Position numbers and translations under genes: made by a program. Below the pieces are notes generated by a model that was not told where the DNA came from, searched no databases, and saw only the letters and a program-made list of their open reading frames with translations. This document shows positions 1,774 to 21,751 of a DNA stretch of 23,226 nucleotides, one piece after another. The number at the start of each line of letters is the position of its first letter. The stretch's first letter is position 1. This DNA is from a virus: IMG/VR virus record IMGVR_UViG_3300020183_000481, positions 1 through 23,226 of that record, one strand, 5' to 3'.

Positions 1774-2553
1774 GTGCAAGAAGAATTTGAATCCACCGTT
1801 GAAAGCGTTCCTGACACACCCGTAGAAGGGCAAGTTGAGGCGGACGCCGAGATTGGTGATACCCCGGTTGGGGAACCGAAAGAGTATTTCGCTTGGGACG
1901 AATACGCTGACAAGCCCGTCAAGTTGACTGTTGATGGCGAAGAAATTGAGGTTCCTTTGGCTGAGGCGCTCAACGGGTACCAGCGTCAAGCGGACTATAC
2001 ACGCAAGACGCAGGAACTCGCTGAGCAACGGAGACAGGTGCAGTTTGCTGGCGCTTTGCAAGAGGCTTTGCAGAACGACCCGAGCGGCACTCTGGAACTG
2101 CTTTCGCAACATTATGGTGTGAATCAGAAACCAACGTCCGAAGAGGACGAGTTTTTGGACCCTATGGAGAAGCAGTATCGGCAACTTGAATCTCGTATTC
2201 AGGCATTTGAGCAAGACAAGGCGATGCGTGAATTGGAGAATCAGATTGAGTCTTTGTCACGGAGATACGGAGACCTGTTTGATGCCAATGCGGTCGTAGC
2301 GAAAGCGTTGGCGACAGGTAACACGAATCTGGAAGCAGTCCATAAACAGATTGCATTCGACCGTTTGTATGAACAATCCCAAACCAAAGGAGAAACCAAG
2401 GTGACGCCAGAGGAAAAGAAGATTGTTGAAGCCAAACGGGAGGCTGCGGTTGTGTCTAAGGGTGCTTCTGCGAAGAGTGCCGACGTGTCTTCAAAACCAA
2501 TTCGTACAGTCCGCGAAGCCTTTGAATCTGCCAAAAAGCAGTTTGAGGGTTAG
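1774..2553 (+). CDS. Capsid scaffolding protein
   Basis: 259 residues starting at GTG 1774, chosen because GAAGGAGG (1761-1768) sits five bases upstream. Scaffolding proteins guide capsid assembly and leave or are degraded before DNA is packaged. The first 40 or so residues are acidic (many Glu and Asp). The segment VKLTVDGEEIEVPLAEAL, then NGYQRQADYTRKTQELAEQR, is typical of phage scaffold or head-assembly proteins. Residues about 75-175 are strongly helical and likely coiled coil. The C-terminus is Lys- and Ala-rich with a final amphipathic helix (REAFESAKKQFEG), the part that usually binds the coat protein. It lies between portal and capsid genes, the usual place. There is no visible protease motif, so a protease-scaffold fusion is unlikely. 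Confidence 0.78.
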   Translation: MQEEFESTVESVPDTPVEGQVEADAEIGDTPVGEPKEYFAWDEYADKPVKLTVDGEEIEVPLAEALNGYQRQADYTRKTQELAEQRRQVQFAGALQEALQNDPSGTLELLSQHYGVNQKPTSEEDEFLDPMEKQYRQLESRIQAFEQDKAMRELENQIESLSRRYGDLFDANAVVAKALATGNTNLEAVHKQIAFDRLYEQSQTKGETKVTPEEKKIVEAKREAAVVSKGASAKSADVSSKPIRTVREAFESAKKQFEG

Positions 2554-4588: not shown

Positions 4589-5274
4589 ATCTAGCCGACG
4601 TTCGCACGATGGTCCGAGACATCTCGGACTTGGACACCGTTGACCTGCCCAACAGCCTGTTGGATACGTTCGTCAAGGAAGCGTTCCAGCGCATCGTCGC
4701 TTTGGAGCGACGATGGCCGTTCTACCAAGAAACATACACGATGAACACCGTCACTGGTCAACGTCCGTACACCATCTCCACTATCGGGGACATTCGGGAA
4801 ATAATTTCAATCGTGGAGACGACGACATCGGGCAACAGGTTTTGTGAGATTGCGTACGATGATGCCGAGGAAATTTGGTTGGGTAACACCGACGTTGCTA
4901 GCCGCCCCTATTTTTGGGCTGTGTGGGACGGTCAGATTCACCTGTATCCGAAACCAGATGCGGTGTATCCGTTGACTGTCCGCGCGTATCGTAACGCGAC
5001 GTATACGTGGTTGTCGAATACGGCAACCGAAATTGACATAGATAACTGGTTTCACATCTTGTTGGCGTATTACGCGCTCGCGCGCGTGTACCAGCGTCAA
5101 GAGGACAACGAGATGGCGATGATGTATCAGCGGTCGTTTGAGGAAGGTGTGGCGATGGCTCGCCGCGATTTGATGAAGGCACGGTCGCACAGACCGCTTC
5201 TGTTGTCGGGTGGTAAGAAGTATCCGACGATGCGCCGCTGGTTGCAGACGTTGGGGGCGACGCTTGGGTCATGA
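4585..5274 (+). CDS. Head-tail adaptor / tail tubular A-like protein
   Basis: 229 residues. I choose the TTG at 4585, which overlaps the preceding stop and has AGGGCGG a few bases upstream; the next in-frame ATG (4609) would remove the first eight residues of a conserved helix. The pattern is that of podovirus adaptors (P22 gp4 / T7 gp11 type), which sit below the portal: an N-terminal helix pair ending FVKEAFQRIVALERRWPF, a beta-rich middle with YTISTIGDIREI, the common motif WDGQIHLYPKPDAVYPLTVRAY, and a C-terminal helical part (LLAYYALARVYQRQEDNEMA). The stop overlaps the nozzle start by ATGA. Function follows from family and context. Confidence 0.8.
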   Translation: MNLADVRTMVRDISDLDTVDLPNSLLDTFVKEAFQRIVALERRWPFYQETYTMNTVTGQRPYTISTIGDIREIISIVETTTSGNRFCEIAYDDAEEIWLGNTDVASRPYFWAVWDGQIHLYPKPDAVYPLTVRAYRNATYTWLSNTATEIDIDNWFHILLAYYALARVYQRQEDNEMAMMYQRSFEEGVAMARRDLMKARSHRPLLLSGGKKYPTMRRWLQTLGATLGS

Positions 5275-6881
5275 GCAACCTTTCTACGCGCCGATACGAC
5301 GATTTCACTGGCGGTTTGAACCTTCGCGCTGACCAGTTTCAGTTGGCTCAGAACGAGTCACCCGATTTGTTGAACGTGGAAATTGACCCTCGTGGCGGGG
5401 TGTTCAGTCGTGGCGGTATGCACAGGTTGAACACGACCGCCGTGGGCGGTACGTGGAATCCGCAAAGTTTGTATTCGTTCTACGGTGATTCTTCTCGTTT
5501 GATGCTCGCCAACGACACGAAAGTGTTGCATTCGTCCGGCGCCAATTTTACCGAGTTGCAGTACTCCGCTGGCAATGCGGTTGTTTCCGTTTCGTCTCAT
5601 GGCGCGGACATGTATGCGTGGGGCAACACGCTATACATTACGACAGGGGCAGCGACGGGCAAGGTTGGTTACAAGTGGACGACTGGTTCGGCGTTTGCGA
5701 CCGCGTTGTCCGCGTCTGGTCCGACGTGGCAGGCGTACAATAATCCGAACGGAACACACATGCCCCCGGCTGAGCATGTGATTACGCATGCCAACAAGTT
5801 GTTCGTTGCCGACACCTATGAGGATGGTGTTCGTTACCAGAATCGTTTGCGTTGGTCGCACGAAGGTCTGCCCGAGAACTGGTTGGAGGACGACTATTTG
5901 GAGTTCAACGGTGGCGGATTGGGAATCCGTGCGCTTGCCATCGTGGCGGGTCAACTTGTTATCTTCAAACCGAACGGCATCTATTTGTTGATTGGCAACT
6001 CGTCGGACAACTTTCAGGTCGTTGAACTGTCAACGAATCTCGGCACCAACACCCGTCACAGTGTTGCGCAGTCGGAGTCTGGTGTCTATTTCTACTCAAA
6101 TCCCGAGGGTGTGTTCTTTTATGACGGCACGAAAATCGTGGACATTTTTCAGCCGTTGCGTCCGTTGGTGGACGAACGGCGTTTGTCTACGGCTTCTACG
6201 GAACCGTATTCGGTGTCGTATGCGGGTCGCCGTGTTTGGGTTGCGTTGCCGTTTGATGACACCAACACCGCCACCCAGCCGACTCGGAACTATGTGTTTG
6301 ACGCGTCAATCGGGTCTGGTGGCGCGTATACGCAGTTTGCCACGCACGATGGTTACGGTGTCGTCGCCGGAACGGATTTCACGGATGACAACGGGGAGAA
6401 CTATCGGGTGTTTTGTCATCCCGTTCAGGCTCGTGTTGTGAAGGTTGATTTGTACGAGGAAGCCCAAGACAACATTACTGGTACGGCGGCAAGTTTTTCG
6501 TCGTACTACAGGACGGGTTGGGTTGACGGTGGTTCGTACGCACGTAAGAAGGTGTTTCGTCGCCCCGACATCGTGTTCAAGCAGGTGGATACGCAACGGA
6601 TTGTGAACGTGAAGATTTTTCACAACTACGAGGAGGCGTCTGGTTCGGAGCGTAAACAGTTTGATGTCACGTTGTCTGGCACTGCTACTGGCGGGTATTG
6701 GGGTACGGATTTGTGGGGGACTGGTTTGTGGGGTACTGAGTCGGAGGGTGTGCAGGTTATTTCTGGTCGCCAACTTGGGTTGGCGCGAAGCGTGTGTTTG
6801 TTGTTTACGGGACCTTCCAACGGCAACTGGGGTATTGATTCGATTACGTACAAGTTCAACAACCGAAAGGTGAGTGGCTGA
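5271..6881 (+). CDS. Tail nozzle / tail tubular B-like protein
   Basis: 536 residues, starting at ATG 5271 inside an ATGA overlap. The protein corresponds to the tail tube or nozzle of podoviruses (T7 gp12 / P22 gp10 type). The N-terminus has the typical FTGGLNLRADQFQLAQNESP followed by DLLNVEIDPRGGVFSRGG. The rest is beta-rich with propeller-like repeats: KLFVADTYEDGVRYQNRLRW, SHEGLPENW, LGIRALAIVAGQLVIFKPNG and SESGVYFYSNPEGVFFYDG. Near the end, residues 476-490 contain three tandem WGT units (YWGTDLWGTGLWGTE). It completes the head-to-tail connector encoded from 1 to 6881. Its stop overlaps the next start by one base (TGATG). Confidence 0.82.
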   Translation: MSNLSTRRYDDFTGGLNLRADQFQLAQNESPDLLNVEIDPRGGVFSRGGMHRLNTTAVGGTWNPQSLYSFYGDSSRLMLANDTKVLHSSGANFTELQYSAGNAVVSVSSHGADMYAWGNTLYITTGAATGKVGYKWTTGSAFATALSASGPTWQAYNNPNGTHMPPAEHVITHANKLFVADTYEDGVRYQNRLRWSHEGLPENWLEDDYLEFNGGGLGIRALAIVAGQLVIFKPNGIYLLIGNSSDNFQVVELSTNLGTNTRHSVAQSESGVYFYSNPEGVFFYDGTKIVDIFQPLRPLVDERRLSTASTEPYSVSYAGRRVWVALPFDDTNTATQPTRNYVFDASIGSGGAYTQFATHDGYGVVAGTDFTDDNGENYRVFCHPVQARVVKVDLYEEAQDNITGTAASFSSYYRTGWVDGGSYARKKVFRRPDIVFKQVDTQRIVNVKIFHNYEEASGSERKQFDVTLSGTATGGYWGTDLWGTGLWGTESEGVQVISGRQLGLARSVCLLFTGPSNGNWGIDSITYKFNNRKVSG

Positions 6882-7156
6882 TGCCTTTGTCTATTCCTTA
6901 TTCGTTTACCACCGGGACGGTGATTGAGGCTGGCGACATGAACAGCAACTTCACTGCGGTGAAGAACTTTGCCGACGGGTTGGCTACTGGTACGAACATT
7001 GATGCTGGTGCAATTACTGCGGCGAAGATTGGTACTGGTGCTGTTGAGACGGCGAAGATTGCCGATGGTGCCGTTACTTCGGCAAAGTTGGCTGCTGGAA
7101 TTATTGCAAGTTCAGATAGCGACCAGTTTGTGTTGGGTGCGCAGGTGTTCGGATGA
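6881..7156 (+). CDS. Short fibre-like protein with AxTxAKI repeats
   Basis: 91 residues. ATG 6881 lies in a TGATG overlap with the nozzle gene. The N-terminus (LSIPYSFTTGTVIEAGDMN, then SNFTAVKNFADG) is a motif often found at the start of phage tail-fibre or tail-associated proteins. It is followed by three decapeptide repeats (AITAAKIGTG, AVETAKIADG, AVTSAKLAAG), which in other phages usually form triple-helical or beta-structured fibre shafts. The chain ends soon after in SDQFVLGAQVFG. No receptor-binding head domain follows, so this may be an adaptor, a trimerisation stub, or a minor tail or head fibre. It has no cysteine. Confidence 0.7.
   Translation: MPLSIPYSFTTGTVIEAGDMNSNFTAVKNFADGLATGTNIDAGAITAAKIGTGAVETAKIADGAVTSAKLAAGIIASSDSDQFVLGAQVFG
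7010..7099 (+). repeat. Three 30-bp units coding for decapeptide repeats
   Basis: In-frame units at 7010-7039, 7040-7069 and 7070-7099 encode A-(I/V)-x-x-AK-(I/L)-x-x-G. The DNA copies are diverged, while the protein pattern is kept, so this is a selected structural repeat rather than a fresh duplication. Confidence 0.75.
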
Positions 7157-7329
7157 GAACCCCGTGGTCTTCGCCAATCATCAACACATTGACAACCGAT
7201 GATGCTGCCCGTTTACAGCAGATTTTTATTTCGTTGTCGTTTGAGTTGTCGGAGATGCGCAAGGAGATGGAAGAGTTGAGGCGGCTTGTGGCAAAGATGG
7301 ACAGGAACGGTTATGGCGTACGACCCTAG
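7153..7329 (+). CDS. 58-aa coiled-coil protein
   Basis: A short gene starting at ATG 7153 in an ATGA overlap with the previous stop and ending at TAG 7327-7329. It encodes 58 residues: a short N-terminal part (MRTPWSSPIINTLTTDD) and then an uninterrupted helix with heptad-like hydrophobic spacing (AARLQQIFISLSFELSEMRK followed by EMEELRRLVAKM). Its coupling at both ends (it overlaps the next gene by 17 bases) and its lack of cysteine match the rest of this chain. No family is recognised. It could be a small tail or core assembly protein; small helical proteins with other roles, for example in lysis, cannot be excluded, but it has no clear membrane segment. Confidence 0.68.
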   Translation: MRTPWSSPIINTLTTDDAARLQQIFISLSFELSEMRKEMEELRRLVAKMDRNGYGVRP

Positions 7330-7747
7330 TTTGTATGAGTCGCGTCGTCGCGGATTGACCGAGAATTATGCCGCTACTGCCGCAGCGAATCAGTATTCGC
7401 GCACGTTGTCTCAGCAGCGTGGCGCGAGGCAGCGTTTGGCTGCGTTGCGCCAGTATGAGCAAGCACAACCGCAGTTGGTGCGCGGCTATTCGCAACGGAA
7501 TCTTGTGTCTCCGAATGTGCGTAGCGGTATTTTCAATCGTGCGATGCAGGATTTTGCTTCGGAGCGTGCACGTAATTTGTCGGAGTTTGATATGGGTCAG
7601 GCTGAGCAGATGCGGGGTTTTGATTTGGAGGATGCGAGGATTTTGCAGCAGTATCGGAGTGCGTTGGGTGATTTGGAAATGGATAAAGCAAAAGAAATTG
7701 CGAACGCTGCACGTCAGTTGTTTGCCTTCAGAGCAGGAGTAGCGTAA
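7313..7747 (+). CDS. Internal virion protein-like, 144 aa
   Basis: 144 residues from ATG 7313, chosen over an upstream in-frame TTG at 7286 because it is a proper ATG with AGGA six bases upstream. The protein is almost all helix and rich in Gln, Arg and Ala (ENYAATAAANQYSRTLSQQR; LVRGYSQRNLVSPNVRSGIF; FDMGQAEQMRGFDLEDARIL). The RGYSQRNLVSPNVRSG stretch resembles conserved unknown proteins of podovirus-like phages located among internal-core genes. It has no cysteine or membrane segment. The stop overlaps the next start (TAATG). A component of the internal core or ejected set is likely from context. Confidence 0.72.
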   Translation: MAYDPSLYESRRRGLTENYAATAAANQYSRTLSQQRGARQRLAALRQYEQAQPQLVRGYSQRNLVSPNVRSGIFNRAMQDFASERARNLSEFDMGQAEQMRGFDLEDARILQQYRSALGDLEMDKAKEIANAARQLFAFRAGVA

Positions 7748-8865
7748 TGCCACCAGTCCCAAATCCACCGAAGGGTGGTCGTGGAGTAACCACCTATAAT
7801 CCAACCGACCCAAATCTTGCGGACATGTCGCCGGATGAGTTTGTTGCTTGGGCAAAAAAGAACGGGTTGTTTCAGTACAAGCCAACTTCTAGTGTTGGTG
7901 CCAGTGCCGGTAAGGCAACTACTGCTTCTGACCGTTTGGCTCAACAAAAGTTTGATTATGAACGGCGTCAGGATGCCTCCGAATCTGCTCGTGCTGAGCG
8001 TACGTTGGCGGCGTATCAACAGATGTTGTCCGGTGGCGGTTACAGGTCTGGTATGGACAAGATTTTGGGGATGATTGATTCGCAGGCTGGGACGTCGCGG
8101 GGGAATGTGCAGAAGGCTTATCAGGATGCTTTGGCTGCGATTGCGGGTGGTTATGGTACGGCACAAGATTTGACGTCGCAGGGTTATGGTGCGTTGGAAC
8201 AGTTCTTGCGTCAGAATCCGAACAATCCGTATGCGAATGTGCAGGTGTCGGCTGGGTCGGCGCCTGATGCGATGGAGCAGTTGTTGTCTGCGTATGGTGT
8301 GTCGGCTGAGCCCGTGCGTGCGCAAGTTGCCGCTGAGCAGCAGGCTGCGCAGCAGGGGGCTGCCGGGTTTCAGAATTTGTTGTCTACGTTGGGTGCGTCG
8401 GCTCAGCAGTCTGATGCGTCTCGTTTGGCGGAGATGATGATGGCGAGGAATTTGGCTGGGGAGACGTTGGGTACGCAACGTGCGACGTTTGAGTCGCAGG
8501 CTGCTCGTGCGCAGGCTGATGCGTTGGCGCAGATTGAGGCTCAGTTGGCTCAGGCTCGGTTGGAGCAGGAGATTGCGGCGAATACTCGTCGTCAGTCCAT
8601 TGAGGATGCGATTGCTGCGGCTGGTGGTATGGTGCCGAACATTGGTTCACCGACTGCTACACCGACTGCTACACCAACGGCTACACCAACGGCTACACCG
8701 ACGGCTACACCTGCAAGGCTGGTTGACATGTTGGCTGATAGGGCTGAGTCTGCAAATCCTACGTTGAAGAAACGTATTGAGGAGTTTGTGAAGAAGAATC
8801 CGAATGCTGGGATGAAAAAGATTAAGAAAGAATTCCCGAAGATTGCCGCAACCCTCAAGGGGTAG
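7747..8865 (+). CDS. Internal virion protein-like, 372 aa, PTAT repeat
   Basis: 372 residues starting at ATG 7747 (TAATG overlap). No enzyme motif was recognised. After a short Pro-rich start there is a small domain (LADMSPDEFVAWAKKNGLFQ), then a long Ala- and Gln-rich helical region (residues about 55-295; for example LGTQRATFESQAARAQADAL). A PTAT linker of five tandem units follows, and the last 50 residues are a compact Lys-rich domain (LKKRIEEFVKKNPNAGMKKI). The long helical body, lack of cysteine and place before the giant gene suggest an ejected core protein comparable in role to T7 gp14/gp15. That is inference from position and composition. Confidence 0.75.
   Translation: MPPVPNPPKGGRGVTTYNPTDPNLADMSPDEFVAWAKKNGLFQYKPTSSVGASAGKATTASDRLAQQKFDYERRQDASESARAERTLAAYQQMLSGGGYRSGMDKILGMIDSQAGTSRGNVQKAYQDALAAIAGGYGTAQDLTSQGYGALEQFLRQNPNNPYANVQVSAGSAPDAMEQLLSAYGVSAEPVRAQVAAEQQAAQQGAAGFQNLLSTLGASAQQSDASRLAEMMMARNLAGETLGTQRATFESQAARAQADALAQIEAQLAQARLEQEIAANTRRQSIEDAIAAAGGMVPNIGSPTATPTATPTATPTATPTATPARLVDMLADRAESANPTLKKRIEEFVKKNPNAGMKKIKKEFPKIAATLKG
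8650..8709 (+). repeat. Five 12-bp tandem repeats (PTAT linker)
   Basis: Five in-frame units of CC(G/A)AC(T/G)GCTACA at 8650-8661, 8662-8673, 8674-8685, 8686-8697 and 8698-8709. Units 1 and 2 are identical, as are units 3 and 4. They encode Pro-Thr-Ala-Thr, a stiff, extended linker. Copy number may vary between relatives. Confidence 0.9.
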
Positions 8866-8886
8866 CGGTTGGGGTTATGGGTAGAG

Positions 8887-9885
8887 ATGGCTGACGATTT
8901 TGTTCTCGCTTTAGCAAGAATGCTCCAAGGCAAGGGCAATGTGTCGTCGGGCGACCTCAACGTACTGTTTTCGCCAGAAGTTGCCCAACTTACGGGAACC
9001 GATTATCAGAGCGCAGAACAAGCCGGCATGGACGAAGAAATGATGCTTCGTGAGTATGCCCCCAATTTCTTGTATACGCGGTCTTTGGACCCCAAGGACA
9101 TTCGGGCCAGTTTGGCGAATGCGTTGATTGTTGAGGGTCGGGCGCCTTGGGAAGTGAAACGAGATGCTCAGGCGTATGCGTCGGCGCAAGCCGAAGCGGA
9201 CGGAACGTACGATTTTGATGCCAACAGTAAAGAGTTGGAGAATTTTGTTGACACCATTTTTAGGGAGTCGAACGCTTTGCAGGTTGCCAAGTACAAGAAA
9301 CAGCAGAAGGATACAACGAATAATCTTCCTCCCGAGGATTTGGATTTTACTTTGGAGCAGTTGGAGCCGGAGTTGATGCAGATGCTTGCGTCAAGTTATT
9401 CGCAAGTTCAAAAGGATAAGGCAAGGACAAAGGTTGACCCCGCTTCGGTGAGGTATGCAACCGAGTATTTGAAGGGGAAGCGACCGGCTGAAGAGGCTGC
9501 GGCACAGAAACGTTCTGATGTTTACGCTGGTAAGGCGGGTGTTGGTGGCGTGGTGGGGCAGGGAATCAAGGATATTGGTGCAGCAATTATGCGCCCTTTC
9601 AAAGAGGGTTCGCTTAGCGACACCCGCAAACAACGCAAAGAGAAGAAGGCTGCGGCCGATGTAGCGGAAAAAAGTTATCAGTACACTTTGCGCACCATAG
9701 TAGAACGTGCCGCCGACCCGCAGCGTATTGCGGACGAGGCGACCGCAAAACAGCGGGAAAAGAATTTGGAACAGATTATGCAGGTTGTTGCACAGTTGGC
9801 GCAACAGAACGCTAGAGCGGCGGGGTACACGCCTTATCGGGAAGCACTCATTAGGAGAGCAAACTTTATCCGCGGTGGTGACTGA
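8887..9885 (+). CDS. Internal virion protein-like, 332 aa
   Basis: 332 residues from ATG 8887; an in-frame TTG at 8869 would add six residues, but the ATG has a GGGTAGAG site just upstream. No family recognised. The N-terminal half is acidic and helical (DDFVLALARMLQGKGNVSSG; SLDPKDIRASLANALIVEG). The middle contains a Gly-rich stretch (AGKAGVGGVVGQGIKDIGAA, residues about 210-230), which could insert into or cross a membrane. The C-terminal third is a basic coiled coil (LSDTRKQRKEKKAAADVAEK). It has no cysteine. The stop overlaps the giant gene's start (TGATG), so production is probably coupled to it. A pore or core protein of the ejection apparatus is a reasonable guess. Confidence 0.72.
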   Translation: MADDFVLALARMLQGKGNVSSGDLNVLFSPEVAQLTGTDYQSAEQAGMDEEMMLREYAPNFLYTRSLDPKDIRASLANALIVEGRAPWEVKRDAQAYASAQAEADGTYDFDANSKELENFVDTIFRESNALQVAKYKKQQKDTTNNLPPEDLDFTLEQLEPELMQMLASSYSQVQKDKARTKVDPASVRYATEYLKGKRPAEEAAAQKRSDVYAGKAGVGGVVGQGIKDIGAAIMRPFKEGSLSDTRKQRKEKKAAADVAEKSYQYTLRTIVERAADPQRIADEATAKQREKNLEQIMQVVAQLAQQNARAAGYTPYREALIRRANFIRGGD

Positions 9886-12800
9886 TGGCTGTTGACAATT
9901 CGGGGGCGACGTTTCAGGAGTTGTTGAATCAGTTGGCGAAAGCCAAACCGCTCCCCGTGTCTCCGTCGCCGTTTCGCACGAAAAAAGCGATTGCTGGTTC
10001 GCAGTTGGGTGATACGCAACTTGGTGCGGTTTCTGCGGCACCTTCTTTGCAAGACCAGATTGCGCGTATTGCCAAAGGCAATACCGCGCCGACTGGGTGG
10101 AAGGGGGCGTTGTACAGGGGTTTGAATTCTCCTCCGGGCAAAGTGGTGTTGGGTGGTTTACAAATAGTTGATACGCCGCGACGCGCAATCATAAGCACAT
10201 TGAAAGAAACCGTTGATGCGTTTGACACCGACCCGAATACGACAACTTCGTTGGGTGATTTTGTTAGTCAGGTGAAAGACCCGACGTTTGGTTTTGGTCG
10301 CATTTACGCAAAACCGGGTGCGGGTGGTCGAATTGTCGGGTTTATCGGAGACGTGTTGTTGGACCCGATAACGTATGCGACGTTTGGTGCTTCTGTTCCG
10401 TTGAAGGGCGCAACAAGTGCGGCGACCGCAGCAAAGTTATTGGAAGCGGGTGCCGGTAAAACCCTGTTTAGGCAGAGCGCCAATTTGTCTGGTCGTGAAG
10501 GTCGTGCGGCTTTGGCTAAGGTTTTGCAGGACATGGGTGCAGAAGCAGGTGTTGTGAAGAATGTTTTGGCTCGCGGCAAGTCTGCGGTTCCTCGCGAGTT
10601 GGCTGAAGAGTTGGGTTTGCCTCGTAACGGTTTGTACATGTTTGGTTCGCGTGTGCGTGTTCCGGGTTCTGGTGTTATTGGTAGCGCGTTGGAGCGTGGA
10701 GTTGTTGGTAGTCGCCTGTTTTTGACAAACACAAAATGGGGCACAAAACTGCAGTACATGTACACGCCGCGCGGTGTGAGCGGTGTGTATGGTGACGTCA
10801 GTCAAATTCGTGCAGATTTGGCTTCTGGTCGTTTGGATGCCGAAACCGCGAATGCGATGCTTGCTGGTTTGAATGGAATTGAGTTGGGTCGCAGGGCGGG
10901 TGCCCGCGCTAGGGGAGACTATGGTCGTGGCGCGGCGCGCGCAATGGAAGACCAGCAGGCACAAAAATTTGATACAGAAATTCATCGTTTTATTGAAAGT
11001 GCCGATGACGCCGCGTTGACAGCGGAACAGCGGAAGGCTCGCAATCTTGCGCAGGGCGTGTTGGAGGCTGCGCGCGTAAACATTGAGGGTGCGGGCAAGG
11101 TTGTTGATGACACTTTTGAGTTGAAGAATCCCGCACTCCAAGTTGATGAGGCAACTGGTGTTGTGACGAACAGGTATGTTCCGCATGTGTATTCTGACGA
11201 TTTTTACAAGTGGGCGGAACGCAATCCGCAGGACCCGTTCTTTCAGTTGATTGAACGCGAGGATGCGGTGAACGTGTTGGATATGCGCAACAGTTTGGCT
11301 CACCGCGGAATGAAGAAGGGAACCAATTTTTTGGAGACGGACAAGGTTATCAAGTACGGGACGATTGAGGAGTTGAACGCCTTGTGGCGTGAAACGACCG
11401 GACTTGATTTTGATTTGTTTGAAACGTCCATGTCCAAGATTTTGAGCAAGTATGCGCGCACGGTTGATTCTGCGCATTCTGTGTTTGCGTTTTTGGGTGA
11501 GTTGAAGAACACAAACTTTTTGCGGATGATGGAACAGCAGGGTGTGATTGACCCTGATTATCTGCGCGCTATGGCGGTGCATCAGGACATGATGTTGAAG
11601 AATGTTGCAAGGTTGGCGGAAAAGAAGAAGAACGCTGCCGGCGCGTTGAGGGATGCGGTTGTTGAAATGTTTGACAACAATGTGCGGCGCGGGCCGATGG
11701 CGACGATGCGCCGTGTCGTGTCCGACACCGGCGAGGAAATCAGGCTTGCTACTGCTGCGGTGAAATCGGTTGACCAATCCGTTGCGCAAATAGAAGCCTT
11801 GTCCAAGACGCTGGATGAGATTGCGGTTGAAACTCAGGCAAAGATGGTTGAGTTGACGTCGGCTACGGTTGAGAAGAATGTTGTGATGGGACATATTGGC
11901 GACATTATGCGGCGCGCCAGCGATGAGGCAACAAGTTTGGCGCGGCAGGCGCGCCAGTTGGCGCAAGACGCTGCTTCTGGTCGGCAAAGCGCGGAGGCGT
12001 TGGAGGAGCGTTTGGTTGATTTGCAAACCAATCTTTCTCGCGCTGATGCAGCATTTTCTAGGGCGAATGAAACGGTTGAGTACATGCGGGTGTACGGGGA
12101 CGAGTTGGGTCCTGCGATGCAGAGGATTTATCAGACGATTCGGCAGCAAAGCAACGATGGGGATTTGCCTGCGATGTTGGCTGCGGGTGAGACGTTTGCG
12201 AAAACAGGCGATGAGGAGACGGACAGAATCATAGACATTTTGATGCGTCCGTTCAATCATCTTCCGTACAAGAACACGGTTGATTTGGACAACGAATGGT
12301 TGTCGTTGACGATGGATTCAAATGAGTCTTACGGGCGGGTGCTGCGGAGTATTCCGGGTGATGTTGGTGGTGATGTTGAGGGCGGAAGGGTTACGCGCAA
12401 AGGTATGGCGTATGAGCGTTCGGCTACGCGCAAATTGACTCAGGACAATGTGAATGAGATAGTTGGTCGTGCCGCAACCGTTGGTGATAATCCGGAGAAG
12501 GTTGGGGACGCATTTTTCTTTATGACTGCCCGAATGTTGCGGTATGCGTTTGATGCCGCGGGTGGTGGCGACGCTGGTTTGGCTGCGCAAAAGGCTTTGG
12601 CTGACGAACTGTTGACTTTCGGACCGGGGGTGTCGGCGCGCGCGCGGGCATGGCAGGAGGCGAACGGTGCGGTTAGCAGGATTGTTGAGCAGCGTAAGGT
12701 TTTGGAAGAGTTGGGTTCTCGCAGGGTGATGCGCGGCGGAGAGTACGAGAAGTACGAGCAAGCGGTGATAGACATTGCTGCGTTGGAAGAAAAATTGAAG

Positions 12801-15800
12801 GATGCTGGTACGTTTGTTGACGAGTATCCGACGGTTGGTGCAGCGTATGATTCTTTTAGGGTTGCGTTCAATCAGGCAAAATCTGGTGGTTTGGAAGATG
12901 CCAGAACTTTTGCGTACAAGGCGATTGATTTGGTGGCGGTAGCCGCCGAAGCAGAGCCGTCTTTGCGTAGAAGCCCAAGTTGGATAACGTTGATGACTCT
13001 TGCAAATGATTTTGAAAAAGCGGTTGCTGCCGGTAACACAATACAGAATACTGGTGCTTTGGATGCGCTTTACGCCAGATTTGTAAAAGAAGTTACCGAC
13101 GCGTTTACTGACCCGGTTCAGGTTCAACGAGATGTTGAGTTGTTGAATTCTACGCGTCGTCGAGCCGCAGAGGCGATGTCGCTGGATAAAAGTTTCAATG
13201 ATGCCAAAATGAATTTGGACATCAGCGTGAAGGATGCCGGTGTGAAAGTCGCAAATTATCAGTTGTTGCACGCTGCGGATATGGCGGTTGATGCGTTGAC
13301 ACGTTTGTTGCCGAACAACACCCCGACGGACACGTTGTGGCGTTTGGCTTTGTCTGGTGCTGCGCGTCAACAGTTGGCGCATGTGGAGAGGTTTGAGAAA
13401 GTAATTTCGCAGGGCAGGACAATTCTGTCCACGATAAGAGACGAGGTGTACGGCGTCCCGTCGCATGAGCGAGCGGGACGGTTGGCGTATCTTGTTGAAC
13501 AGTTGTCGCCGGATGACAAAGAAGCGTTGTATTCGGTAACGGGGGATTTGACGTTCATCACGGATACGGTTGGTCAGTCTCGTGGTATTCAGTATTATCG
13601 TCGTCACAATGGCGAATACGAGCGTGTATTGAACGACATTGTTACCCGACATCAAGGTCCGAATTGGAAACGTCAAACAGAAATTGAGGGTTTTGGCGGT
13701 TATGTAAAAGTGGAATCTCGCGCAAAGTATTATGATGCCGATTACGACAGAACCAGCGAGTCGTACAGCGGGAAAGCAGAGTTGGATGATGTTTTGTCAC
13801 CGAATCAAGAGGAGGCTTTGGCGCGCAACAGGTTGTTGAAGGAGTCGGAGAATCGCATCAACAAGTTGCAAAGTTCAACACCCGACGCTTTGCGTCGGAT
13901 GATTGATGATTTGGTTGAACGTGGCAGCATTGACGCAGAAACAAAATCGCGTTTGTTGGATGAACTTGCAAATGCCGAACAGTTGGCGAATGCCGCAATG
14001 GCTCGTTCTCGTCCCAAGAGTGTTGCCGATTTGACAAAAGAGTTGGATGCCGCCAAAAAATCCAAGGATTTGGACAAGGCGGCAAAGGATGAGTTGGTGA
14101 AGAAACTTGAGTCGGAGTTGCGTTTTGCGCGGCAACGTGTTGATTTGCCGGAGCGTGTTGCCAAACGTGTTGCTGAGGGTGCGAGAAAAGACGTGACCGA
14201 CACTTACGGTTTGGCTCGCCAGTTTTGGATGGCTACGCGCGTGGACAAGGGGGGTGCCAGTCGTGCTCCGCGCCAGATTGACGATTTCTTTACGCTTGCT
14301 TTTGGTGACGGTGAGATTCGAGTTGGTTGGACTGGTGGTTCGCGGAAACCTGTTTATCGTTACGGCGGAGACATGTCGGATGAGGTTCAGACTTGGAATC
14401 CGTCAACTGGTGCAATGGAAACTGTGATGTTGCAGGATGTTTCCGAAGAAAGTTATGCGAGGCTCGTTGATGCGACGATTGCTGCGGCTCGCGCAGAGAA
14501 GGCTAGAAGGATTGCGACCATTCGGGCTAAGCGTGGTACGCCGGAGTATTTGGAACAAAAGTTGGTGTACGACCTTGAGTATTATGATTTAGAAATTCGG
14601 GACAGGGCTGGTTCGCTGAATACGGTTGGTGAGGTTGTTGACGCAGACAAGGCTCGGCGTTTGGTGAACGAGCGTCATGAGTTGTTGTTGGAGCAGCCGT
14701 TGTTGAAAGAGAATGTGTCAGTTTCTAGGACGGATGCTGAGCGTGGAATGGCGCAGGATTTGTTGCGCCGCAACGGCGCCAAGGTTGAGGCAATAGACAA
14801 AGAGTTGAATGACATGGAGAGGCGTGCTCGTCAACTTGTGCAACGTGGTGAGGGTAGCGGCGAGGTGATAACTCGTCGTGTTGAGGTTGAGGATTCTATT
14901 TTTGGTTCGGCGGCTAAGCGTAACAACATTCGTATGCGAGAGTTGCGGATACTTGCGCAGGACCCGAGTGCGGCACCGGAGTATGGGTCGCTCGATTTTG
15001 GTTTGGAATCTTCGGTGACGTTGGGTGGGGATTTTGGTTTGGTGGAGCATTTGCGCAGCAAGATTCGGCAGTTGGAGGCTGCCGTAAAGGTTGTTGAGCA
15101 GGCAAAGAAGAAGGGTACGCAGGAGGCGATTGACAAGGCGAAGGCGCGAGCGCCGAAGCGGGTACAGCAGGCGGTTGAGGCTGCTGAGATGATTGCGAAC
15201 AATCCTGTGTTGCGCAGGCGATTGGATGCGATTTTGTTGTTGGATAGCGCCGACCCCGCCAAGGCGGAGAAGGCGTATCGGGATTTGTTGATGCCCAAGA
15301 AGGTTGGTTGGTTGGGTGATTCTCGTTTGGGCAAGGAGGTGGATGAGTCTGGTGATTTGTTGCGTGGTGTGCCGACTATTGTGAAGAACAAGATAAATGC
15401 GGTTCGTCGTGCAGCGCGAAGTCTGCGGGAGATTGAACGCAGTCCGGAATACACTGCCGCCTTAGAGCGTCAGTTCAAGAACGAATTTTTGAAGATTCTT
15501 GCCGCCGTGGACATCAACAATCAGGAGTTGGAATTTGCCCAACATGTCTTTGACTCCGCGGCCAGAGGGCGCATAAATCGTTTTTCTTCTCGTGATGTGA
15601 ATGGTGTTGGAGATTTTTCTGCTGATGCGGAAGTTTATGTGATGAACGAACTTGCGTTTGACAACAAGATGGTTGACCGTTTGTTGGCAAACAAGGCTGG
15701 TGAGTACTATTTCACGGTGAACGGTTTGCGTGTCCGCGACCATGTGGCTCGCGATGTTGCCGTGGCAGAACTGGGTGGAAAGTTCCGTTACAAGGTTGAG

Positions 15801-18800
15801 ACTTCCGAATCTTCTAGTGGCGTGAAGCAGTACAAGGTTGTGAACTTGGACAGCGGGGCTGTTTATCATTACGATGAGTTGCCTGCCGAGTTGATTACGG
15901 ATACGGTGTTGGAAACCCGTGCACCGTTTTACACGTTGCCCGGTACGAATTTGAGTCCTACTGGCATGCGTGGACCTTTGGCTGGGGATTTGGCAAACGA
16001 GTTCAGGGAGTTTGCTGGTCGTCGTGGCGAGCGTGTGGTTTACAAACCGAACAGGGCTTTGCATGCGGCAGGTGAGGTTCCGTATCACGGTGATGAAACG
16101 TTTGCGGTTTATTCAACCGGTTCGGGGACGCAGCGTGTGTTCAAGATGTCGGAGATTGATGGTGTGGTGTCAAAAAATAGTGCCGATGCGACGGTGGTGA
16201 CGTATCCGAGGGGTGAGGACCCGCTCGACCCGAGGAATGTGTTTGCTGGTATTCGTGATGATTTTGATTCTATTTATGAGCCGACCGCCAAGGTTCCGGA
16301 TAAGAAGTCTGGTTTGTCGTATGATGCGGTTGAGGGTGATTTTGCTAGGGCGACGGAGGGTTTTGTTCGGGCGCGCAGTCAGAAGAGGTTGTCTCAGTTG
16401 CGTACGGCGCGGGAGAAGTTGGTTGCCGAGTTTGAGGTTCAGACGCGCAAACGTTCGGAGGCTGCTACTCAGGAGTTGAATGCTCGCACGTTTGATGCTC
16501 AGAGGGCTGCCCGCACTCGTCGCGCTGTGGCTGCTGACAGGTTGAATGATTTGCGTAAAGAAATTGATGCGTTGGACAAACAGATTCGTTCAACGAATCC
16601 TGTTGTCCGCATGAACACTTTGATGAATGCGTTTGATTTGATTCGTAAGGGCGACCCCGAGAATGGTGTTTTGCCGGGTTTGTTTCGTGACCCGACGATT
16701 TTGCGTCGTCTTGGTGTCAAGGTTGAAATGGACCCGCGTTCGGTGACAGATGAGCAGGCGTTGGAGGGTTTCAAGCGTTATGTGGAGGGTTTGAAGCGTG
16801 GCAGATTGCGCGCTGGGAAGAACGAAGAGGTTATCAACGAGGTTGCGGCAAGCGAGTTGAAGCGTCGCAGGGACGTGTTGAAGCAGGCTTGGTCGGAATC
16901 GGAGTCTGGTTTGTTGCTGGCCCGCAAAGACATGGCGGAAAAAGTGATTGCTGCGAACAGGAAAGCGTTGCAGGAAATCATGGATGGCGGTCCGGGGGAA
17001 ACGCTGTTGCGTACGTTGCGCGGACATCGGGAAGAGTTGGCTCGCGCTGAACGCGAGTTGGGTTTGGCGAACAAGGATTTGGCGCGAACAATAAAGCAGG
17101 TTCGCGGAAAGATTGAACCGGGTGAGGATGTTTCGGCTGCTGCTGAACGAATTGCTCAACAGATGGCTGAGCAGGCTTCGGCAAATCAAGTGTCTTTTGG
17201 TATGACTCGTGATGCAATCGAGGCGGCGAAGGTTGAGGCGCAGGCGTTGTTGAGGGAGCGTTGGTATCAGGATTCGTATCTTGAACAGGCAAAGACAACG
17301 TTGTTGGGTGTTCGTTCTACTGTTGCTGCGCGTGAAAGTATTTTGGCTTCGTTGAAGCAGCAACAAAAAGTTGTTGAGCAGCAGTTGGATGCGATTGGAA
17401 AATCTATGTCTGCGAATACTTTGACGGTGACGGAACACAAGCGTCTTGGTGCAGAGTTCAGAACGTTGAAGTTGAAGTTGGATGGGCGTGGCAAGGTAAA
17501 GGGTTTGAAGCAGAGAATTGCTGATGCTCAGGAGGAGATTGCGAAGTTGCATGAGCGGCGTTTGAAGGTTGAGGGTGAGATTGCCCAACATCGTTCTGCG
17601 TACGATGTTGGTTTCTATGCGCAGTTGACGAAAGATGATGCGGTGCGTCGCATGGAGTTGGTGAAACGGACGATGGACGATTTGAAAGAACTTCGCAAAC
17701 AGGCCAAGGGGGTGAAAACAAAGGACGCGGGTTGGGAGGCGGATGTTGATGAGTTGGCGGAGGAGGTGCGCAAGATTATTGACCAGTTGAACGAGTTGCC
17801 CAAGGGTCCGGACACGGACAGGTTGGCTGCGGTGTTGACGGGTTATGCGGAGGCTAAGGCAAATTTGTTGAGGGCGCAAACCGCTTCGGAAGAGTTTGCG
17901 ATAAACAGCGTCTTCGGTGCCCAAGCGCATTTGATTTTCAGAAACGTTCTGTCTGATGGTTGGGTTGAGTTGAGTGGTGTGAAAGGTGCCGGTAGTGGTG
18001 CGTTGGAAGCGTTTGCAAATCTTGAGTTGAAAGAAAACATGCTTGAAATTTTCAACAACATGGGTCGTTTGCGTGACCCCGTGTTTGTGAAAGAGATGCA
18101 ACGGTTCACGGGCAGGTACACGAGGTTCTTCCGAGCGTGGGCTTTGGCGACACCCGGTTATCATGTTCGCAACACGCTTACCAATGCGTTCATGATGGTG
18201 GCTGCTGGTGGTAAGCCGAGATTTTTGTCTGAGGGCGCCAAAGAGTGGGATGCCTTGTACAAGGCTGTCTACGAAGGCGGGCAGACGATTGACGATTACG
18301 TTGCGTCTATTCCTGACGCCGTTCGCCGCAAAGCGGTGAACGACGCATACGATGCGATGCTCGGCTCTGGTGTTGGCAACGCAGAAGAGATTGCGTTTGA
18401 TATTGGAGGACGGTTCACGAACAATGCGTGGACAAAGTTGAACAGAAGGGCTGCGATTAGGATTGAGCAGCATTCGCGTTTCATGTTGGCGTATGACGGT
18501 GTGCGTCAAGGGTATGGTGTGAACGGTGCGCAGGCTCGGGTACGCAAGTTCTTGTTTGATTACGAGGACATTTCGAGGTTGGATGTTTATGCGCGTAGTG
18601 TGATTCCGTTTTGGATGTGGACGAGCCGTAACTTCCCGTTGACGATTCAGAACATTTACATGAATCCGAAGCCTTACCAGTTTTACGGTAATTTGAAGCG
18701 TGCTTTGGAAGATGAGGACAAGACTGACCGTTTGCCGTTGTGGATGCGCGAGACTGGCGGGTTTGGTTTGGCTGGTACGGGTTTGGCGTTGACTCCGGAC

Positions 18801-19271
18801 CTTGGTTTCAATCGTCAGGCTGCAGATGTGGCAATGCTTGCCGACCCAGCACGGTTGGCTGCAAACGTGAACCCAATTTTGCGTGTACCTGTTGAAGTGG
18901 CGTTGGCAAACAAATCATTCTTCCGTAACAGGCAGTTTGGTGAAGCACCTGTTCAGGTTCAAGGTCCTGTTGGCAATCTTGCGGCGTTGCTTGGCGCACC
19001 GCTTGGTTTGAGTCCTTCTAAGGGCGGTCAACAGTTTGCGAACGAGAAGTTGTTGTATGCACTATCAAACGTTGTCCCGCCGTTCAATCAGGCAGAACGT
19101 TTCATCCCGTCGCAGGATTATTATTCTGACAGGGGCAAGGTTTTTCCGTTCTTACAGTATTTGGGTGTTCCGGTGAAACCTGTAACTCCACAGATGCAAA
19201 CATCAGAACTTATTCGCAGAAGGCAGGAGTTGCAAAAACTTCTGCGTTCACAACCGAAGGTGGAACAATGA
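9885..19271 (+). CDS. Giant 3128-aa internal/ejected virion protein
   Basis: One uninterrupted frame of 3128 residues, starting at ATG 9885 in a TGATG overlap. Near the N-terminus (about residues 146-170) lies a hydrophobic stretch, GGRIVGFIGDVLLDPITYAT, of a kind seen in very large phage virion proteins. Residues about 600-740 and 2150-2620 are rich in coiled coil (for example LEERLVDLQTNLSRADAAFS; RIADAQEEIAKLHERRLKVE). The C-terminal 400 residues are the most family-like: RFFRAWALATPGYHVRNTL (about 2746-2764) and VRKFLFDYEDISRLDVYARS, then VIPFWMWTSRNFPLTIQNIY (about 2886-2925), motifs recurring at the ends of giant phage proteins. I found no cysteine in the whole chain. I see no lysozyme, peptidase or RNA-polymerase motif. 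Its place between core proteins and endolysin, and the short tail, argue for an ejected protein, not a tape measure. The frame shows no internal break. Confidence 0.85.
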   Translation: MAVDNSGATFQELLNQLAKAKPLPVSPSPFRTKKAIAGSQLGDTQLGAVSAAPSLQDQIARIAKGNTAPTGWKGALYRGLNSPPGKVVLGGLQIVDTPRRAIISTLKETVDAFDTDPNTTTSLGDFVSQVKDPTFGFGRIYAKPGAGGRIVGFIGDVLLDPITYATFGASVPLKGATSAATAAKLLEAGAGKTLFRQSANLSGREGRAALAKVLQDMGAEAGVVKNVLARGKSAVPRELAEELGLPRNGLYMFGSRVRVPGSGVIGSALERGVVGSRLFLTNTKWGTKLQYMYTPRGVSGVYGDVSQIRADLASGRLDAETANAMLAGLNGIELGRRAGARARGDYGRGAARAMEDQQAQKFDTEIHRFIESADDAALTAEQRKARNLAQGVLEAARVNIEGAGKVVDDTFELKNPALQVDEATGVVTNRYVPHVYSDDFYKWAERNPQDPFFQLIEREDAVNVLDMRNSLAHRGMKKGTNFLETDKVIKYGTIEELNALWRETTGLDFDLFETSMSKILSKYARTVDSAHSVFAFLGELKNTNFLRMMEQQGVIDPDYLRAMAVHQDMMLKNVARLAEKKKNAAGALRDAVVEMFDNNVRRGPMATMRRVVSDTGEEIRLATAAVKSVDQSVAQIEALSKTLDEIAVETQAKMVELTSATVEKNVVMGHIGDIMRRASDEATSLARQARQLAQDAASGRQSAEALEERLVDLQTNLSRADAAFSRANETVEYMRVYGDELGPAMQRIYQTIRQQSNDGDLPAMLAAGETFAKTGDEETDRIIDILMRPFNHLPYKNTVDLDNEWLSLTMDSNESYGRVLRSIPGDVGGDVEGGRVTRKGMAYERSATRKLTQDNVNEIVGRAATVGDNPEKVGDAFFFMTARMLRYAFDAAGGGDAGLAAQKALADELLTFGPGVSARARAWQEANGAVSRIVEQRKVLEELGSRRVMRGGEYEKYEQAVIDIAALEEKLKDAGTFVDEYPTVGAAYDSFRVAFNQAKSGGLEDARTFAYKAIDLVAVAAEAEPSLRRSPSWITLMTLANDFEKAVAAGNTIQNTGALDALYARFVKEVTDAFTDPVQVQRDVELLNSTRRRAAEAMSLDKSFNDAKMNLDISVKDAGVKVANYQLLHAADMAVDALTRLLPNNTPTDTLWRLALSGAARQQLAHVERFEKVISQGRTILSTIRDEVYGVPSHERAGRLAYLVEQLSPDDKEALYSVTGDLTFITDTVGQSRGIQYYRRHNGEYERVLNDIVTRHQGPNWKRQTEIEGFGGYVKVESRAKYYDADYDRTSESYSGKAELDDVLSPNQEEALARNRLLKESENRINKLQSSTPDALRRMIDDLVERGSIDAETKSRLLDELANAEQLANAAMARSRPKSVADLTKELDAAKKSKDLDKAAKDELVKKLESELRFARQRVDLPERVAKRVAEGARKDVTDTYGLARQFWMATRVDKGGASRAPRQIDDFFTLAFGDGEIRVGWTGGSRKPVYRYGGDMSDEVQTWNPSTGAMETVMLQDVSEESYARLVDATIAAARAEKARRIATIRAKRGTPEYLEQKLVYDLEYYDLEIRDRAGSLNTVGEVVDADKARRLVNERHELLLEQPLLKENVSVSRTDAERGMAQDLLRRNGAKVEAIDKELNDMERRARQLVQRGEGSGEVITRRVEVEDSIFGSAAKRNNIRMRELRILAQDPSAAPEYGSLDFGLESSVTLGGDFGLVEHLRSKIRQLEAAVKVVEQAKKKGTQEAIDKAKARAPKRVQQAVEAAEMIANNPVLRRRLDAILLLDSADPAKAEKAYRDLLMPKKVGWLGDSRLGKEVDESGDLLRGVPTIVKNKINAVRRAARSLREIERSPEYTAALERQFKNEFLKILAAVDINNQELEFAQHVFDSAARGRINRFSSRDVNGVGDFSADAEVYVMNELAFDNKMVDRLLANKAGEYYFTVNGLRVRDHVARDVAVAELGGKFRYKVETSESSSGVKQYKVVNLDSGAVYHYDELPAELITDTVLETRAPFYTLPGTNLSPTGMRGPLAGDLANEFREFAGRRGERVVYKPNRALHAAGEVPYHGDETFAVYSTGSGTQRVFKMSEIDGVVSKNSADATVVTYPRGEDPLDPRNVFAGIRDDFDSIYEPTAKVPDKKSGLSYDAVEGDFARATEGFVRARSQKRLSQLRTAREKLVAEFEVQTRKRSEAATQELNARTFDAQRAARTRRAVAADRLNDLRKEIDALDKQIRSTNPVVRMNTLMNAFDLIRKGDPENGVLPGLFRDPTILRRLGVKVEMDPRSVTDEQALEGFKRYVEGLKRGRLRAGKNEEVINEVAASELKRRRDVLKQAWSESESGLLLARKDMAEKVIAANRKALQEIMDGGPGETLLRTLRGHREELARAERELGLANKDLARTIKQVRGKIEPGEDVSAAAERIAQQMAEQASANQVSFGMTRDAIEAAKVEAQALLRERWYQDSYLEQAKTTLLGVRSTVAARESILASLKQQQKVVEQQLDAIGKSMSANTLTVTEHKRLGAEFRTLKLKLDGRGKVKGLKQRIADAQEEIAKLHERRLKVEGEIAQHRSAYDVGFYAQLTKDDAVRRMELVKRTMDDLKELRKQAKGVKTKDAGWEADVDELAEEVRKIIDQLNELPKGPDTDRLAAVLTGYAEAKANLLRAQTASEEFAINSVFGAQAHLIFRNVLSDGWVELSGVKGAGSGALEAFANLELKENMLEIFNNMGRLRDPVFVKEMQRFTGRYTRFFRAWALATPGYHVRNTLTNAFMMVAAGGKPRFLSEGAKEWDALYKAVYEGGQTIDDYVASIPDAVRRKAVNDAYDAMLGSGVGNAEEIAFDIGGRFTNNAWTKLNRRAAIRIEQHSRFMLAYDGVRQGYGVNGAQARVRKFLFDYEDISRLDVYARSVIPFWMWTSRNFPLTIQNIYMNPKPYQFYGNLKRALEDEDKTDRLPLWMRETGGFGLAGTGLALTPDLGFNRQAADVAMLADPARLAANVNPILRVPVEVALANKSFFRNRQFGEAPVQVQGPVGNLAALLGAPLGLSPSKGGQQFANEKLLYALSNVVPPFNQAERFIPSQDYYSDRGKVFPFLQYLGVPVKPVTPQMQTSELIRRRQELQKLLRSQPKVEQ

Positions 19272-19807
19272 CACAGTACACAGGTAACAGGGACGGGGAC
19301 AACGGCAAAGCACGACCGGGGTTGCTGGAGTTCGTGAAGACGATTGAGCAGGTAACGGATGGTGCGTTGTGGAACAACGGCACCTATGCGTCACGCAACA
19401 TGCGGGGCAAAGGGTCGTTGTCTGTCCACGCCACTGGTCGTGCGGTGGATTTGTCGTGGCGGAAACTGGGAACCAAGGGGCGACGCAACGGTCGTGCCGT
19501 TGCCCAATGGTTGTGCGATGTGCTCGTGAACAACGCGGAGACGCTCGGCGTGGAGTGCGTGTTGGATTACTGGCCCAAGCCGCATGGTCGCGGGTATCGT
19601 TGTGACCGCGACGGCTGGTTGAACTACAAGTCTGCGACTATCGGGGGCGCGCCCGACGGGGATTGGTTGCACGTTGAGTTGTCGCCCCGTATGGCGGATA
19701 GTTCAACGCTGGTGAGGGAGGCGTGGTCGGATGTTGCCCAGACGGGTGTGCTTGCCCAGATGCCGAATCCGAAACGGAAGAAAAGTCAGGCTCAGGGAGA
19801 ACAATAA
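19268..19807 (+). CDS. Endolysin-like M15 peptidase
   Basis: 179 residues; ATG 19268 lies in an ATGA overlap with the giant gene. The protein carries the zinc-binding signature of M15 (VanY/L-Ala-D-Glu peptidase type) enzymes: SVHATGRAVDL with H54 and D61, and DWLHVEL with D132 and H135 (the Asp is in the usual place of the catalytic acid). Such enzymes cut the peptide stem of peptidoglycan. No signal peptide or wall-binding domain is seen; residues after about 155 are a basic, probably disordered tail (NPKRKKSQAQGEQ). It is the last plus-strand gene, fitting late lysis; a virion-borne wall enzyme helping entry is an alternative. No holin is recognised in the window. It has three cysteines, unlike the six genes before it. 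Confidence 0.82.
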   Translation: MTQYTGNRDGDNGKARPGLLEFVKTIEQVTDGALWNNGTYASRNMRGKGSLSVHATGRAVDLSWRKLGTKGRRNGRAVAQWLCDVLVNNAETLGVECVLDYWPKPHGRGYRCDRDGWLNYKSATIGGAPDGDWLHVELSPRMADSSTLVREAWSDVAQTGVLAQMPNPKRKKSQAQGEQ

Positions 19808-20317: not shown

Positions 20318-20483
20318 GATTCTTCCTTTCGTTGTTATGAACGTAGATGGCGTTCTCAGATAAACCGTTGACAACGATACCTTCGCCCACCTCCACGTCA
20401 TCAAAATGCGCGCGCAGTATACGTACAATTTTTGCCACATTGACCGCTCTATCGAATCCGATTGTTATCTGACGAGAGTTCAT
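20298..20483 (-). CDS. Small phage protein, 61 aa, unknown
   Basis: 61 residues from ATG 20483, which has a strong site (TTGGAGGAAC) on the minus strand; this decides the start against longer in-frame versions inside the DUF1599 gene. The sequence MNSRQITIGFDRAVNVAKIV, then RILRAHFDDVEVGEGIVVN, suggests a small beta-alpha-beta fold with a basic tail (NNERKNRVSKQR). No family recognised. It overlaps the previous gene by 35 bases and the next by 20. Confidence 0.65.
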   Translation of the reverse strand: MNSRQITIGFDRAVNVAKIVRILRAHFDDVEVGEGIVVNGLSENAIYVHNNERKNRVSKQR

Positions 20484-21327: not shown

Positions 21328-21751
21328 CGTATGATTCGTCGTACAGCAACGCGGATACATCGGTGGGGCGTAGCAGATATCCCCACGCTGGGTTGTCTGA
21401 GCGTCGTGCGAAGTCGCGGGTTTCCAGCGTGTCTCTGTTTGCTTCTATGTACCGTTTCAATCTGTCCACGGACACGATGATGAATCCGCCGTCCATTGAG
21501 AAGATGTACACCCACCATTTTGCTTTGGTGACTTGCAACCCTGACGGAACCCACTTGCCAGATTTGCGTGGGTTTTGACGCATCTCCACTGCCATGTTGC
21601 CGTTGCGGTAGCGGTCTGACTTCACCTCGAATGAACCTTCTACGAGGTTCTCCAACATCTTGCGTATCCGCTTCTCACCCAACTGACCGTACTTCAGGTC
21701 TTCTGCGAAGTTGAATGTGTTCTCCTTGATGTCCCACTTACTGTTCTTCAC
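21320..21751 (-). CDS. PD-(D/E)XK-like nuclease
   Basis: 143 residues from GTG 21751, supported by GGGAG seven bases upstream (minus strand) and a 14-base overlap with the previous stop. The pattern YGQLGEKRIRKML with E26, FEVKSDRYRNGNMAVEM with E42-x-K44 and E56, and GLQVTKAKWWVYI matches small phage restriction-fold nucleases, in which the E-x-K pair and flanking acids bind metal. I do not see a clear separate acidic residue just before the E-V-K strand. The role could be DNA processing in replication or recombination, or breakdown of host DNA. It sits two genes downstream of a RusA-type resolvase. Confidence 0.66.
   Translation of the reverse strand: MKNSKWDIKENTFNFAEDLKYGQLGEKRIRKMLENLVEGSFEVKSDRYRNGNMAVEMRQNPRKSGKWVPSGLQVTKAKWWVYIFSMDGGFIIVSVDRLKRYIEANRDTLETRDFARRSDNPAWGYLLRPTDVSALLYDESYDA

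Follow-up and report, generated by a model that had tools for sequence, protein, structure and literature searches.

Cys absence is already known for one class of ejected giant protein, the N4-type virion RNA polymerases, and both this property and its rationale have been published (PMC3715699, PMC3915230; see also PMC4837373, PMC5795418). The lack of Cys was proposed to serve the passage of the protein, an idea credited to Kazmierczak et al. 2002 in PMC2784036. For T7, N4 and crAss001, it has been established or at least proposed that ejected proteins are partly unfolded, and in SU10 the proteins gp20-24 were shown by mass spectrometry to be present in virions and absent from the genome-release intermediate (PMC9509320). 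Because of their rapid evolution, ejection proteins can seldom be recognised by homology, and the proteins that accompany the DNA are undefined for nearly all phages.

We analyzed a stretch of viral DNA of 23,226 nucleotides (IMG/VR record IMGVR_UViG_3300020183_000481, positions 1 to 23,226), referred to here as the window. Its genes follow the order portal, scaffold, capsid, adaptor, nozzle, fibre-like protein, small proteins, giant protein and endolysin. A sequence-only reading of the window had noticed six consecutive ORFs without Cys, with Cys-bearing genes on both sides. Indeed, our recount found no TGC or TGT codon in the 91-, 58-, 144-, 372-, 332- and 3128-aa ORFs at 6881-19271, which together comprise 4,125 residues, while the neighbours contain four (portal fragment), three (capsid), three (a 76-aa protein), one (adaptor), two (nozzle) and three (endolysin) Cys. 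Zero Cys was also counted in the scaffold (259 aa) and in two small virion-region ORFs near the capsid gene (106 and 117 aa), to which the sequence-only reading had not referred. The genes that we refer to as the cassette sit in the late block beside the nozzle and tail genes and ahead of the lysis genes, and their position between nozzle and endolysin is kept in relatives. On the minus strand, positions 20449-21360 encode a protein matching phrog_1485 in which a part similar to sigma-70 region 4 is fused to a second domain, suggesting that host RNA polymerase is redirected.

Table 1 Features of the window around the Cys-free cassette
Feature	Position	Strand	Remarks
Head scaffolding protein	1774..2553	+	phrog_3927 (2e-13); Cys-free
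Nozzle/stabilisation-type tail protein	5271..6881	+	phrog_3287/511; 2 Cys; upstream border
91-aa tail-fibre-like repeat protein	6881..7156	+	phrog_892 tail fibre; probably outside the ejected set
58-aa coiled-coil-like protein	7153..7329	+	possible cassette member; Cys-free in homologues
144-aa protein	7313..7747	+	first clear Cys-free cassette member; also His-free
372-aa cassette protein	7747..8865	+	rich in Ala and Gln; TPTA repeat close to the C-terminus; no Cys or His
332-aa cassette protein	8887..9885	+	Cys- and His-free
3128-aa giant virion protein	9885..19271	+	putative ejected protein; 0 Cys
Endolysin-like protein	19268..19807	+	weakly matches M15 peptidases; 3 Cys; border on the downstream side

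The nucleotide sequence of the giant gene does not itself avoid these codons, since TGY triplets are abundant out of frame: the other two forward frames hold 415 of them (155 + 260), whereas none is in frame, where 51 are expected from the base composition at the three codon positions. For a composition-corrected expectation, we regressed Cys on the other 19 residues with a Poisson model, for which 94 non-ejected proteins from E. coli and seven phages served as the training set. The model predicted 22.4 Cys for the 144-, 372-, 332- and 3128-aa proteins taken together, compared with zero found (P(0) ~2e-10); applied to seven further window proteins, it gave 19.4 Cys, and 24 were found. Chance is excluded as the reason for the lack of Cys in the large genes. 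The sequence-only reading had expected some forty Cys, on the assumption of one percent, but this is an overestimate for proteins of such composition, for which ~22-24 is fairer. For the 91- and 58-aa ORFs the predictions were only 0.7 and 0.6 Cys, so their lack of Cys is by itself uninformative.

Relatives were collected from 80 capsid-anchored loci, from full-contig regions and from 80 loci found via the C-terminal profile; a direct IMG/VR search with the 3,128-aa protein gave no matches, and a genome-contig scan for the host returned one weak, uninformative fragment in an Acidobacteria MAG. The homologues do not have an ordinary Cys content. Among 64 distinct giants (<80% identity, partial ones included, 938-3,288 aa), a single Cys occurs in 158,057 residues, and the 332-aa family has none in 23,439 aa (61 homologues). 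All 74 homologues of the 144-aa protein are Cys-free once the start is placed at MAYDP.., as the apparent Cys in three of them lies in the stretch ahead of the likely true start. In the 372-aa family, 75 of the 76 homologues are Cys-free, the exception being an apparently frameshifted 212-aa ORF with Cys in its tail. The other virion families of the clade contain Cys: 0.39% in the portal, 0.89% in the capsid, 0.58% in the nozzle and 0.15% in the adaptor; the endolysin has 0.89%, and conserved ORFs in the remainder of the contigs, which are mechanical ORF calls and not curated genes, have 1.20%.

We also followed the substitutions between the window proteins and their relatives. Only one change to Cys was found among 38,657 aligned differences in the giants, and none among 4,832 in the 144-aa family, although these differences are not independent, as the relatives share ancestry. 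A substitution matrix predicts 619 new Cys in the giants; this raw expectation is too high, since in neighbouring virion genes the observed numbers amount to 0.14-0.78 of those predicted, and after calibration roughly 90 to 480 Cys are missing. The giants retain 2.5% Met and 1.1% Trp. The constraint therefore concerns the thiol, as neither sulfur nor rare residues as such are avoided. These data bear on the idea of a founder effect or of an economy, that is, a Cys-less ancestor, or avoidance of Cys codons or sulfur by host or phage. All members are homologous within the clade, as this idea requires, but the other genes of the same genomes contain 1.2% Cys, the giants have plenty of Met, Cys is missing even from homologues at 26-30% identity, and families without detectable homology behave alike. 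This explanation is refuted by the Cys, Met and homologue counts, and we give it next to no credence.

The extent of the cassette can be narrowed from the same material. The 91-aa ORF matches tail-fibre families (phrog_892, 9e-9; phrog_28766, 4e-7), and the protein at this position in relatives is 75-322 aa long with up to five Cys (322 aa with five Cys in L082, ~121 aa with two in L091 and L093, 254 aa with one in L099). On both grounds, the 91-aa protein is probably outside the ejected set. The 58-aa protein may belong to the cassette: its 45 homologues are all Cys-free (45/45; 2,596 aa), but its small size gives this little weight. Thus, the part that clearly forms the cassette is 7313-19271, and of the two small products that the sequence-only reading had suggested as possibly ejected, only the 58-aa one can be kept as a candidate.

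The small cassette proteins (7153-9885) are also nearly His-free, with zero His in the window and 0.08-0.15% in relatives (p144, p372 and p332 families), and His is likewise scarce in unrelated small ejection proteins: 3/943 in T7 gp14 and gp15, 6/1309 in P22 gp7, gp20 and gp16, 2/794 in N4 gp51 and gp52, and 2/1223 in SU10 gp21-23. The giants contain 0.7-0.8% His.

As yardsticks, we counted Cys in phages of known biology. No Cys is present in T7 gp15 and gp16, P22 gp7, gp20 and gp16, N4 gp50, gp51 and gp52, lambda gpH, SP6 gp35-37, P-SSP7 gp15-16, phiKMV gp35-37, T4 gp29 and the T4 internal proteins I-III. The N4 precedent, which the sequence-only reading had cited, was thereby borne out (0/3,500 Cys in the virion RNA polymerase), in agreement with the published record. 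In SU10, the one phage for which we found a mass-spectrometry test of ejection, gp20-24 contain 0/2,956 Cys, gp19 just upstream contains six, and the other late proteins contain 41/6,111; the Cys boundary between gp19 and gp20 coincides with that of the ejected set. In a table of six phages limited to proteins of 150 aa or more, Cys is missing from 17 of the 18 ejected proteins compared with 10 of the 81 others (Fisher p 2e-11), and at a length of at least 600 aa the numbers are 9/9 and 0/19; these phages are few and were picked for their known biology, not sampled at random, and epsilon15, crAss001 and T4 were left out of the table. The composition regression predicted 158 Cys for the yardsticks, and eight were found.

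The rule has exceptions in both directions. The internal proteins of epsilon15 contain 7/2,728 Cys, the crAss001 cargo 7/7,478, T4 Alt 3/682 and T7 gp14 one; they are depleted in Cys to varying degrees but not free of it, showing that ejection does not strictly forbid Cys. Conversely, Cys is also missing from several proteins that are not ejected, namely the scaffolds, two tail needles, one short fibre, a capsid protein and two tail proteins of lambda. Zero Cys is therefore a strong mark only for large proteins. The proposal of the sequence-only reading is supported in part. The Cys-free block exists, is kept in relatives and finds its best explanation in ejection, whereas its borders do not mark exactly which products are ejected: the 91-aa protein is fibre-like with Cys-bearing counterparts, the scaffold, which is not ejected with the DNA, is equally Cys-free, and Cys is likewise missing from some needle, short-fibre and tube proteins of the tail, while the ejected T4 Alt, epsilon15 and crAss001 proteins have a few Cys. 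A further locus with this pattern is found in Myxococcus phage Mx8 (L107, 13869-18277), where p54-p57 (1,463 aa) occupy the ejection position and are all Cys-free, which makes them candidate ejection proteins.

Could the lack of Cys be a by-product of composition, without selection against thiols, because helical or disordered proteins rich in Ala and charged residues are simply Cys-poor? The cassette is indeed rich in Ala, Gln, Glu and Arg, its modelled parts are mostly helical, and correction for composition lowers the expectation from ~40 to ~22. Nevertheless, a deficit of 0 against 22.4 in the window and of 8 against 158 in the yardsticks remains after this correction, MukB, a largely helical cytosolic E. 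coli protein of 1,486 aa, has ten Cys, and the single new Cys among the aligned differences of the giants also contradicts a by-product. We consider this explanation very improbable.

The scaffold raises a different possibility, namely that Cys is kept out of every protein inside the procapsid, whether scaffold or ejection protein, and that the cause lies in assembly, in crowding or in leaving the shell instead of in threading through the tail. The scaffold is Cys-free in all 52 homologues from the relatives (52/52; 0 Cys in 13,749 aa) as well as in T7 (gp9), P22 (gp8), SP6 (gp31), P-SSP7 and phiKMV, and pooled scaffolds have two Cys compared with 13 predicted. Scaffolds are not ejected with the DNA. 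However, their small number and short length make for a weaker signal, and this possibility leaves the Cys-free lambda gpH and T4 gp29 unexplained. Both are tape-measure proteins and belong to the tail, not to the head interior, which argues that passage through the tail suffices. As the main cause, exclusion from the procapsid interior seems to us unlikely, although both causes may act.

Taken together, it is likely that the cassette proteins are ejected and that ejection is the main reason for their Cys absence. The counts themselves establish that Cys is missing, that this is conserved, syntenic and specific to the thiol, and that it recurs in ejection proteins with no detectable homology to the cassette; we infer that the cassette proteins are virion components that leave the particle unfolded and that disulfides are the hazard. 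The 144-, 372-, 332- and 3128-residue proteins, and perhaps the 58-residue one, would serve a short-tailed phage as its ejection (internal virion) proteins. Packed in the head, they would pass the portal-nozzle channel largely unfolded, either ahead of the DNA or together with it, and would regain their fold in the envelope or the cytoplasm of the host. Selection would act against free thiols at several steps: in the crowded virion, which is kept in an oxidising medium, during threading as non-native chains, and in the oxidising extracytoplasmic zone that has to be crossed. A single disulfide, if misplaced or formed between molecules, could obstruct the channel or prevent refolding.

A conservation profile of the giant protein shows conserved N-terminal (~1-600) and C-terminal (~2650-3128) parts and a middle of variable length; this middle, residues ~600-2650 here, can be as short as a few hundred or as long as about 2,000 residues among relatives, with both ends conserved. 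The AF2 models of both ends are mostly helical, and that of the C-terminal end is confident (pLDDT 83.7). The C-terminal model matches viral entries of BFVD, many of them named 'large polyvalent protein', at 46% down to 12% identity, these names covering whole proteins and not the matched part. Fold searches in the PDB with both ends gave no known fold and nothing usable, no enzymatic domain was recognised in the giant, and hhalign of the cassette against the ejection proteins of T7, P22 and N4 gave no convincing match. Such homology does not define the functional class as a whole, because these families differ widely from one another.

Size and Cys absence resemble those of N4 gp50, and in a published paper a virion RNA polymerase was inferred from these same two properties for StenR_269. 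On this view, the giant would be an N4-type polymerase, its lack of Cys being just the known property. However, it has no Pfam, PHROG or PDB match to an RNA polymerase, hhalign of both its ends against pieces covering N4 gp50 remained below 2%, the giants of relatives shrink to 1,244-1,319 aa, and the sigma-like protein encoded by the phage suggests use of the host polymerase. On these grounds, with fold models covering the two ends of the giant, a polymerase is a poor candidate, with little chance of being correct.

What is new here is the family of giants itself and the extension of Cys absence to several genes and several lineages. In the literature searched, which lay mostly outside subscription journals, we found no statement on Cys absence that covers an entire ejection cassette or compares ejection proteins of unrelated families. 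Slightly more likely than not, in our view, is the wider interpretation that Cys absence is a convergent mark of phage-expelled proteins that can be read from sequence and used to predict ejected sets in uncultured phages, and that near-absence of His sets the small, probably channel-forming members apart from the giants. The families considered, among which no homology was detected, are those of T7, P22, N4, the lambda tape measure, the kuraviruses and the present actinophage-like clade. If the signature holds in phages with experimental data, ejected sets could be predicted from metagenomes, and the question of whether very large virion cargo passes the tail unfolded would be tied to a constraint on thiols.

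Among known systems, the N4-like phages (Schitoviridae) resemble this locus in having a giant (gp50) beside smaller Cys-free ejection proteins (gp51 and gp52), with 0 Cys in 4,294 residues in N4. In contrast to gp50, the giant described here shows no sign of a polymerase in sequence, profile or fold, and no homology was found. T7 gp14-16, P22 gp7, gp16 and gp20, and SU10 gp20-24 share with the cassette the late cluster near tail genes, the combination of several small proteins with one or more large ones, no or almost no Cys and the low His content of the small members. The present set has no detectable homology to those of T7 and P22, its giant is 2-3 times larger, and it is a putative ejection set known from its genes. 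The large internal virion proteins of the Zobellviridae and StenR_269 can be likened to the giant by their published descriptions, as they are large, helical and Cys-free. A possible link to the phage polyvalent proteins of the LPD type (Iyer et al. 2017, PMC5512222), predicted to enter with phage DNA, is the structural match of the C-terminal domain of the giant to viral proteins so named; the Pfam model LPD38 (PF18857) had no match in the records of six relatives, a weak negative since control genomes were silent too. Counterparts are also present in two isolated actinophages, Microbacterium phage Shocker and Arthrobacter phage Jasmine, whose giants gp37 and gp28 are shorter (1,743 and 1,803 aa) but have homologous ends (hhalign 94.6-97.5). 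In both phages the order of nozzle, small and medium proteins, giant and endolysin corresponds to that described here, the nozzles are homologous, and the four-gene cassettes contain 0/2,472 and 0/2,558 Cys, respectively.
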